Source: Crystallibacter permensis (lineage in GTDB: Bacteria; Actinomycetota; Actinomycetes; Actinomycetales; Micrococcaceae). Taken from it: a DNA stretch of 64,000 bases. Both the position numbers and the translations under genes were made by a program. Location: positions 1-64,000 of the forward strand of contig NZ_JAODLR010000019.1 of the NCBI RefSeq assembly GCF_025960875.1. Direction: 5' to 3'. Shown here piece after piece: positions 42,656 to 62,349 of this stretch. The notes beneath the pieces were generated by a model that saw only the letters and a list, made by a program, of their open reading frames with translations, did no database searches and was not told the origin of the DNA. Each line of letters begins with the position of its first letter. Positions within the stretch are counted from its first letter, which is position 1.

Positions 42656-43270
42656 GTGACTCCTCTCGATAAAGACTCCGCCCGCGCACACTTCCGCAAG
42701 CTGCGGCAGGATCTGCCGGACACCGACCGGCGCGCGGCCGCCGAACAACTGGCCAAAAATGTCATGGCGGGACTCGAAGCGGCCGGAGCGGAACGCGGCA
42801 GTACCGTTGCCGGCTATCTCTCAACCGGCGCGGAACCCTCCACCGACCTACTGCTGCCCGCCCTGACCCGGGCTGGCTACCGCGTGGTTGTCCCCGTCTG
42901 CGAGCCGGAGTACCAGCTCAGCTGGGTGCAGTGGTACGACGGCGTGGAGCTCGTCCGCAGTCAACGGGCCTGGGTCTACGAGCCGGTCGGGGAACGGCTG
43001 CCTTCAGCCATCATGGCCGATGTCCCGCTGATCCTGGTACCCGGCCTGGCAGTTGACGCGGACGGCAACCGGATAGGCCAGGGCGGCGGTTACTATGACC
43101 GGTTCCTGGCAGGTGTCGCCCGGCTGCCGGAGCAGCCCAAGGAAGTCGGCGTTTTTTATCCCCACGAAGTTGTCTCTCCCGGGACCTTCGAGGTCACTGA
43201 GCTGGACGCCCCGCTTGACGGCGCCGTGACGGCAGAGGGTTGGATATGGTTCGGCCCCGGGACAGTGTAG
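42656..43270 (+). CDS. 5-Formyltetrahydrofolate cyclo-ligase
   Basis: Converts 5-formyl-THF to 5,10-methenyl-THF with ATP in folate salvage. The 204-residue protein has the N-terminal LDKDSARAHFRKLRQDL motif. The diagnostic C-terminal sequence is PGLAVDADGNRIGQGGGYYDRFLAG (about 122-147), with GVFYPHEVV further on. The GTG at 42656 has AAGGA 5 nt upstream. It is followed after 2 bp by a CIRCE element and then by the zinc-ribbon gene. The same pair occurs in mycobacteria as Rv0992c-Rv0991c. Confidence 0.92.
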   Translation: MTPLDKDSARAHFRKLRQDLPDTDRRAAAEQLAKNVMAGLEAAGAERGSTVAGYLSTGAEPSTDLLLPALTRAGYRVVVPVCEPEYQLSWVQWYDGVELVRSQRAWVYEPVGERLPSAIMADVPLILVPGLAVDADGNRIGQGGGYYDRFLAGVARLPEQPKEVGVFYPHEVVSPGTFEVTELDAPLDGAVTAEGWIWFGPGTV

Positions 43271-43272
43271 AA

Positions 43273-43299
43273 TTAGCACTCGGAACTATCGAGTGCCAA
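43273..43299 (+). promoter_or_regulatory. CIRCE element (HrcA operator) before the Ruc/FmdB-like gene
   Basis: TTAGCACTC-N9-GAGTGCCAA fits the CIRCE consensus TTAGCACTC-N9-GAGTGCTAA with one mismatch. It begins 2 bp after the cyclo-ligase stop and ends 50 bp before the GTG at 43350. The arms are the same as those of the CIRCE at 62323 in front of groES. TAGAAT just upstream (43268-43273) may be a -10. Confidence 0.85.
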
Positions 43300-43349
43300 C
43301 CCAACGGGTGGCCCGGACGTGTTCCGCAGGAATTTTCAGGAGGATTCAA

Positions 43350-43631
43350 GTGCCCACGTACGCCTATGCCTGCAAAGATTGCAGCCACGCTTTCGAGATC
43401 CAGCAGTCCTTCAGCGACAACTCGCTGAGTGTTTGCCCTGAGTGCAGCGGCAACCTGCGCAAAAAGTTCAACAGTGTCGGCGTCGTCTTCAAGGGTTCCG
43501 GTTTCTACCGGACCGATTCACGCGATACCAAGAGCACCAGCACGGTTCCGGCCGCCGGCAAGTCCGAAAGCCCGGCGTCGGCACCGGCAGCAGCGCCCGC
43601 ACCGGCCGCTGCTGCCCCCGCTGCCAGCTAG
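43350..43631 (+). CDS. FmdB-type zinc ribbon protein, Ruc-like chaperone candidate
   Basis: A 93-residue protein. Residues 1-45 form a FmdB-type zinc ribbon with two CxxC pairs (YACKDC and VCPEC) around SFSDNSLS. The C-terminal half is low-complexity, Ala/Pro/Ser-rich and probably disordered. This layout, and the position next to a cyclo-ligase gene, match Rv0991c of M. tuberculosis, reported as the redox-regulated chaperone Ruc. A CIRCE element upstream suggests HrcA control. The GTG at 43350 follows AGGAGGA at ideal spacing; the annotated upstream ATG would start before it. A chaperone role here is inference from these points. Confidence 0.85.
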   Translation: MPTYAYACKDCSHAFEIQQSFSDNSLSVCPECSGNLRKKFNSVGVVFKGSGFYRTDSRDTKSTSTVPAAGKSESPASAPAAAPAPAAAAPAAS

Positions 43632-43652
43632 AGAGCCTCCTTAGCAATACAC

Positions 43653-43681
43653 CACCCGGGGATGCCACGGCTCCCCGGGTG
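43653..43681 (+). terminator. Terminator after the zinc-ribbon gene
   Basis: CACCCGGGGA (43653-43662) and TCCCCGGGTG (43672-43681) form a 10-bp stem, 21 bp after the stop. Confidence 0.75.
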
Positions 43682-43781
43682 CTCTGCGTCCGATGAGGTT
43701 CCTTTCCTCCACAACGGAAACTATCGCTGCCCCCGTGCACAGTTCGCCGCAAGCCCCTGACGAACCGGTTCCGGGCCTCCT

Positions 43782-61886: not shown

Positions 61887-62183
61887 CTACTTGACGACGA
61901 TCGCCAGCACGTCGCGGGCGGAGAGTACGAGGTACTCCTGGCCGCTGTGCTTGACTTCGGTTCCGCCGTACTTGGAGTAGATAACGACGTCGCCCTCGGC
62001 TACATCGACCGGGACGCGGTTTCCGTTGTCATCAACGCGGCCGGGGCCTACTGCGACAACTTCACCTTCCTGCGGCTTTTCCTTGGCGGTGTCCGGGATG
62101 ACCAGGCCTGAAGCCGTGGTCTGCTCTGCTTCGAGCGGGCGGACAACAATACGATCCTCAAGAGGCTTAATAGAGACCGACAC
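61887..62183 (-). CDS. groES: 10-kDa co-chaperonin GroES
   Basis: Lid of the GroEL chamber, 98 residues, the usual length. The sequence [49 protein letters not shown] has the mobile loop, and [14 protein letters not shown] is the roof-side strand. The GTG at 62183 has AAGGAG 8 nt upstream. The in-frame ATG 15 codons earlier has none and lies in the leader. Two CIRCE elements and a matching promoter lie 90-170 bp upstream, so HrcA repression and heat induction are expected. Confidence 0.96.
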
Positions 62184-62276
62184 TCGGCTCTCTCCTTTGC
62201 ATGAGCTACGAATAGGTTCTTTGGCCAAGGACTTTTCTGCCGTCGTCGCGGTGCCGGCAGGAGGTTCCTTGAATAA

Positions 62277-62303
62277 TTAGCACCCGCACGGGGAGAGTGC
62301 TAA
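62277..62303 (-). promoter_or_regulatory. CIRCE element 1 of groES
   Basis: TTAGCACCC-N9-GAGTGCTAA, one mismatch to the consensus, 94 bp before the groES start codon. It lies just downstream of the predicted -10, near the transcript start. Confidence 0.9.
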
Positions 62304-62307
62304 TAAG

Positions 62308-62337
62308 ACTCTATGTGCCGGATTAGCACTCGGTCAA
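62308..62337 (-). promoter_or_regulatory. groES promoter
   Basis: On the minus strand TTGACC (62332-62337) and TAGAGT (62308-62313) are separated by 18 bp. The -35 sits in the spacer of the second CIRCE and the start lies near the first, so HrcA at either would block it. Confidence 0.65.
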
Positions 62338-62349
62338 GGTGAGTGCCAA
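62323..62349 (-). promoter_or_regulatory. CIRCE element 2 of groES
   Basis: TTAGCACTC-N9-GAGTGCCAA, one mismatch, 19 bp beyond element 1. Its arms are the same as those of the CIRCE at 43273. Confidence 0.9.

Follow-up and report, generated by a model that had tools for sequence, protein, structure and literature searches.

In the general model of HrcA control, misfolded proteins occupy GroEL/ES and HrcA loses its activity. The closest described relative of the gene considered here is ruc (Rv0991c) of Mycobacterium tuberculosis, for which direct repression by HrcA and induction by heat are reported (Becker et al., 2020, PMC7448276). Ruc protein is scarce at 37°C, mainly through HrcA, increases at 45°C, and is abundant at 37°C in an hrcA mutant; it binds zinc, blocks aggregation when oxidized and aids refolding by DnaK (PMC7448276). 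SigH binding and SigH-dependent transcription have also been described for Rv0991c (PMC4803200). Hsp33 resembles Ruc in using four zinc-binding cysteines as a redox switch and in acting as a holdase, but the two are expected to share little structure and to be activated by distinct mechanisms, and they anticorrelate in occurrence (PMC7448276). In line with that anticorrelation, no Hsp33 match was found in the genome searched here. HrcA control of ruc is already known from M. tuberculosis and the principle is not new. Literature searches confined to open-licence papers turned up nothing connecting CIRCE with ruc in organisms other than M. tuberculosis, nor did we find there the class-wide depth of this link, the fixed operator-promoter register in the family analyzed below, or the variation of the promoter under a constant operator.

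The window, a 64,000-nucleotide stretch of Crystallibacter permensis DNA, reads TTAGCACTC GGAACTATC GAGTGCCAA at positions 43273-43299 of the forward strand, a single mismatch from TTAGCACTC-N9-GAGTGCTAA; 17 of the 18 arm bases fit the consensus and the spacer is 9 bases. Three CIRCE matches with three or fewer mismatches are present in the window against 0.01 expected, and none of 100 shuffles gave three, which confirms that 43273-43299 is a genuine CIRCE, far above chance. Two bases separate it from the TAG stop codon (43268-43270) of a 5-formyltetrahydrofolate cyclo-ligase gene, and its end lies 50 bp before the GTG start of ruc. Its arms are shared, base for base, with one of the two elements preceding groES (62323-62349). 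The first-pass annotation had described a well-formed CIRCE 2 bp after the cyclo-ligase stop with arms identical to one of the groES elements, and both statements are borne out, as are the bounds that it gave for the feature (43273-43631), which run from the start of the CIRCE to the ruc stop codon. Consensus match and conservation mark the element as the predicted HrcA operator. Control of ruc through a HAIR element was rejected: over the 250 bases preceding the gene, the closest approach to a HAIR sequence is mismatched at 7 of 14 positions.

The ruc open reading frame (43350-43631, forward strand) begins with GTG at 43350, ends with TAG at 43631 and encodes a 93-residue zinc-ribbon protein of the FmdB family; a Shine-Dalgarno sequence, AGGAGGA (43338-43344, forward strand), can be read directly five bases before the GTG. 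The product scores 65.1 bits against TIGR02605 (cut-off 31.3, E 4.3e-18) and 56.2 bits against PF09723 (cut-off 34.4, E 3.5e-15). Cys8, Cys11, Cys29 and Cys32, together with VFKGSGFY, are invariant in all eight aligned sequences (the window protein and seven relatives), and the cysteine numbering coincides with C8/C11/C29/C32 of Rv0991c. From about residue 59 the protein reads as Ala/Pro/Ser/Thr-rich, so that the earlier description of a small CxxC...CxxC protein with an Ala/Pro tail fits; the tail of M. tuberculosis Ruc is disordered (PMC7448276). Identity to two Mycobacterium-titled proteins is 65% and 63% over their first 60 residues. The cyclo-ligase gene (42656-43270, forward strand; PF01812 E 4.6e-31, TIGR02727 above cut-off) is the immediate upstream neighbour of ruc, in the same orientation, in all 103 family loci, and a cyclo-ligase gene also lies just upstream of ruc in the Mycobacterium-titled loci L148, L152 and L158. 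The likeness to Rv0991c in layout and context that the first-pass annotation had proposed, with its zinc ribbon, upstream HrcA operator and adjacent cyclo-ligase gene, is therefore seen, and the alignments support the window gene as a close relative of Ruc.

The rest of the HrcA regulon was sought by a pattern search of the whole genome (4,947,726 bases, 66 contigs) with AGCACTC-N9-GAGTGC at up to two mismatches. The search returned 47 forward and 45 reverse matches; with the letters of the pattern in reverse order it returned 25 and 20. At one mismatch or fewer there were 14 rows representing seven distinct sites, and these seven best CIRCEs precede ruc, groES (two), a second groEL (two), hrcA and hsp20. 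The identities of groES, groEL and hsp20 come from inspection of the translated sequences, that of hrcA from TIGR00331. In the window, groES is on the reverse strand (61887-62228 as the longest open reading frame, the true start being probably further in), with one CIRCE at 62277-62303 (one arm mismatch) and the other, which shares its arms with the ruc element, at 62323-62349, both reverse-strand pattern matches. The hrcA gene itself (C14:102366-103355; 294.7 bits, E 1.7e-87, above cut-off) has a CIRCE with one mismatch 54 bases before the matched stretch, and a perfect CIRCE (G000:C5:257380-257406) lies 97 bases before the searched coding stretch of hsp20. The ruc operator is the same as that of the described groES-groEL and hrcA regulon, whereas its target is not a chaperonin gene.

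In actinomycetes dnaK is usually under HspR. For dnaK here (C13:33857-35590), the 500 bases upstream of the match contain nothing closer to a CIRCE than a site with seven mismatches. They do contain two HAIR-like sites, each mismatched at 2 of 14 positions, at distances of 122 and 174 bases from the match, so that dnaK looks like an HspR gene rather than a CIRCE gene. The proposal that HrcA control of ruc would extend the regulon beyond groE and dnaK therefore stands in part: there is a CIRCE at ruc, but dnaK does not belong to the CIRCE genes, and the HrcA-ruc connection had already been published. The window gene is, on its sequence, best regarded as a real member of a known regulon. Among hsp20-like genes of the family, a CIRCE (up to four mismatches, spacers of 7-11) was present at 20 of 30 loci, drawn from 70 family genomes with a match, and at 0 of 30 controls; five of these elements (L300, L305, L312, L323 and L325) have an 8-base spacer.

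A sigma-70 consensus scan of 43150-43760 gave no two-hexamer promoter, and no good -35 hexamer was found at the window ruc. Comparison within the family nevertheless points to a -10 element. In 57 of 61 CIRCE-bearing family genomes (CIRCE at up to five mismatches) a TANNNT hexamer ends on the first base of the CIRCE, and in the other 4 it ends on the second; at any other offset tested between -30 and +5, TANNNT occurs in at most 2 of the 61. In the window the predicted -10 is TAGAAT (43268-43273, forward strand), the TAG of which is the stop codon of the cyclo-ligase gene; the two-base gap between stop codon and CIRCE occurs in 16 of the 61 genomes. The M. tuberculosis HrcA site, by comparison, overlaps a SigH promoter (PMC7448276), whereas no GGAAY-N16-20-GTT match overlaps the window CIRCE. 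A SigH-type promoter was rejected for the window, and in the family its frequency does not exceed chance (3 of 58 CIRCE-bearing genomes vs 4 of 58 coding controls of 250 bases).

We consider it very probable that ruc, as an FmdB-type chaperone gene, is transcribed here from a heat-shock promoter under HrcA repression, and direct control of the window ruc by HrcA is likely. At normal temperature HrcA would sit on the CIRCE at 43273-43299. Because the element starts on the last base of TAGAAT and covers the predicted start point, bound HrcA would be expected to exclude RNA polymerase. Upon heating, HrcA would become inactive and ruc would be switched on together with groES-groEL, the second groEL, hrcA and hsp20. 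The ruc product would most likely act as a holdase when its cysteines are oxidized and pass its clients to DnaK, as does M. tuberculosis Ruc. By analogy with that system we infer HrcA binding, heat induction and chaperone activity at this locus, the last from one published orthologue.

The conservation of the association was addressed by comparing genomes of the family. A ruc gene was present in 103 of 120 family genomes, and all 103 upstream regions were analyzed for a CIRCE within 250 bases, by default with up to four mismatches in the 18 arm positions. A CIRCE was found at 58 of the 103 loci, or 61 at up to five mismatches. Coding-stretch controls gave 0 of 103 (one more at up to five mismatches), and a first-order Markov null gave 0 of 515. 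The first-pass annotation had counted absence of the element from close relatives with the gene against its proposal. Such absence is seen in part: 45 of 103 family genomes that keep ruc have no CIRCE there (42 of 103 at five mismatches), whereas the element is retained throughout the window's own genus (6 of 6 genomes). Scored at up to five mismatches, the element is present in all members of 15 of 28 genera, in one of five members of 3 genera, and in no member of 10. On a midpoint-rooted tree of cyclo-ligase and Ruc residues the trait requires 11 changes, of which at least 8 are forced by well-supported branches, as compared with 32.9 for shuffled labels. Because most of the class outside the family has the element, repeated loss would be the simpler reading of the CIRCE-less genomes. 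An hrcA gene was found in 118 of 120 family genomes, implying that the element was mostly lost while the repressor was retained; loss of hrcA as a general cause was rejected on this ground and on its presence in 142 of 148 class genomes. With 45 ruc-bearing genomes lacking the element in a family where hrcA is nearly universal, control of ruc by HrcA is apparently dispensable. TAGAAT occurs within 250 bases of ruc in 15 of 42 CIRCE-less family genomes and in 2 of 42 coding controls, as if in these the operator had gone and the promoter had been retained.

Across the class, ruc was found in 139 of 148 genomes, and all 139 upstream regions were analyzed; this sample and that of the family overlap in two loci (L012 and L041). 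At up to four mismatches a CIRCE is present at 109 of 139 loci, compared with 0 of 137 coding controls (two loci being too short) and 0 of 695 Markov resamplings, and it is represented in 32 of 37 families and 63 of 76 genera; the families with none are f4 (0/4), f7 (0/5), f28 (0/10), f34 (0/1) and f39 (0/1). Most arm positions are near-invariant across the class, and the 9-base spacer and the flanks drift. The 43 organism-titled loci, an incomplete sample, include 26 with the element (coding control 0 of 42), among them loci titled Mycobacterium, Nocardia, Streptomyces, Frankia, Micromonospora, Amycolatopsis, Nonomuraea, Nocardioides, Cellulomonas and Arthrobacter. No CIRCE was found at ruc in a MAG titled Streptomyces griseus (L160) or in a Bifidobacterium MAG (L146, the sole Bifidobacterium-titled locus). 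For bifidobacteria, the excerpted source gives CIRCE at groEL, groES and hrcA and does not include ruc among them (PMC9004370). Outside the class, one further titled locus with the element, Bacterium HR29 (L180), has a perfect CIRCE at ruc. Its phylum we take to be Chloroflexota. Within the phylum to which the class belongs, spread of the association beyond the class was rejected: one (L346) of 20 out-of-class loci, the best-scoring 20 of 98 genomes with a match, has a CIRCE.

Presence of hrcA is not a clean predictor of CIRCE at ruc. Five genomes have a ruc locus and no hrcA that was found, three with CIRCE and two without. The listed completeness of the three (G141, G151 and G248) is 80, 94 and 86%, and incomplete assembly may lie behind the absence of hrcA from them; the two (G002 and G101, genus g3) are listed as 100% complete and show ruc with neither an hrcA match nor a ruc CIRCE. 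In family f28, the small genomes of genus g62 (G143, G162, G180, G195, G209, G221, G253 and G263) all lack CIRCE at ruc. In each of the eight sampled genomes of that genus the HrcA model is matched in two stretches within a frame of 243-254 residues, the first covering about 1-130 and the second, in at least seven of the eight, about 225-336; the g62 HrcA thus seems to be without its middle part.

The half-sites themselves vary. The ruc half-site is often GCAGTC instead of GCACTC, as in the left arm of 51 of 109 class sites, and the right arm appears in the corresponding form, GACTGC, in 15 of 58 family ruc sites. In one locus (L077) both arms are of the GCAGTC type; its element has five mismatches and is therefore outside these half-site counts. 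HrcA affinity for the GCAGTC half-site might be lower than at groE.

Three other readings of the window locus were weighed. The gene could be transcribed mainly by read-through from a cyclo-ligase promoter, as a housekeeping operon gene, with the CIRCE governing a minor internal promoter only. The constant position of the cyclo-ligase gene directly upstream and on the same strand in the family is what such an operon would look like, and no terminator-like site was found in 43150-43760. The fixed register of the -10 with the CIRCE, however, argues for a dedicated ruc promoter. The cyclo-ligase gene went undetected beside ruc in 83 of the 109 CIRCE-bearing class genomes, a figure that is an upper bound (one divergent query, and 1 kb upstream for much of the set), and HrcA is the main reason reported for the low level of M. 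tuberculosis Ruc at 37°C (PMC7448276). We regard predominant read-through as unlikely. It is more improbable still, to the point of being nearly negligible, that the CIRCE is a non-functional remnant at this locus, retained because divergence has been short. Ten of the 28 family genera with ruc lack the element and 3 more have it patchily, which, with the 11 changes on the tree (at least 8 forced), would be compatible with such a remnant, but conserved arms between a drifting spacer and flanks, and coding controls at 0 of 137, speak against it.

The third reading concerns the function of the product. The FmdB family models name a domain without a tested function, and the tail sequence is not conserved among Ruc homologues (PMC7448276), so that a zinc-ribbon protein of some other role could merely share HrcA control. 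Set against this are the zinc binding, the prevention of aggregation in the oxidized state and the support of DnaK refolding by M. tuberculosis Ruc (PMC7448276), and the 63-65% identity of the first 60 residues to the two Mycobacterium-titled relatives. A role other than that of a chaperone is accordingly a possibility to which we give about one chance in four, and the HrcA-repressed chaperone gene is the reading that we retain. It provides concrete, testable grounds for viewing actinomycete genes annotated only as FmdB-family zinc-ribbon genes as heat-shock chaperone genes, and suggests that, in a large bacterial class, the HrcA regulon reaches beyond groE.

Lineages differ in the promoter that lies under the operator, but they do not divide cleanly. 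Outside the window's family, TANNNT occurs at the same CIRCE register in 38 of 107 class loci. GGAAY-N16-20-GTT runs into the CIRCE from upstream in f21 (10/10), f6 (6/9), f20 (3/10) and f19 (1/10) and in no other class family, as compared with a single occurrence in 108 coding controls of 250 bases. From the resemblance of their sites and proteins to titled loci, f21 is taken as Streptomyces-like and f6 as Mycobacterium/Nocardia-like. Among the 23 of 26 CIRCE-bearing titled loci that were checked, the SigR/SigH-type pattern was found in Streptomyces (9/10), Mycobacterium (2/3) and Nocardia (2/2) and also in Amycolatopsis; Frankia and Arthrobacter have TANNNT alone, and Micromonospora and HR29 have neither. 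A clean swap of promoter types was rejected, since the Cellulomonas, Nonomuraea and Nocardioides loci show both.

Taken together, these comparisons lead us to favor, with somewhat less assurance than for the window locus itself, a view in which ruc has belonged ancestrally, together with groE and hrcA, to the core of the HrcA regulon throughout the class. In this view the operator would be fixed over the -10/start region and the promoter would depend on lineage, with a TAGAAT-type -10 in the window's family, a SigR/SigH type in genomes resembling Streptomyces and in many resembling Mycobacterium, and the two together in some others. Heat control would then extend through most of the class, with thiol-stress control added in some lineages only. 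Lineages with and without the thiol-stress promoter under the same operator would provide a natural experiment in the joint control of a redox chaperone by heat and oxidation signals. In the Streptomyces-titled loci L150, L163-L166 and L168-L172 the CIRCE lies just 9-11 bases before the ruc start codon, and the right end of the Streptomyces-titled element reaches into the Shine-Dalgarno sequence.
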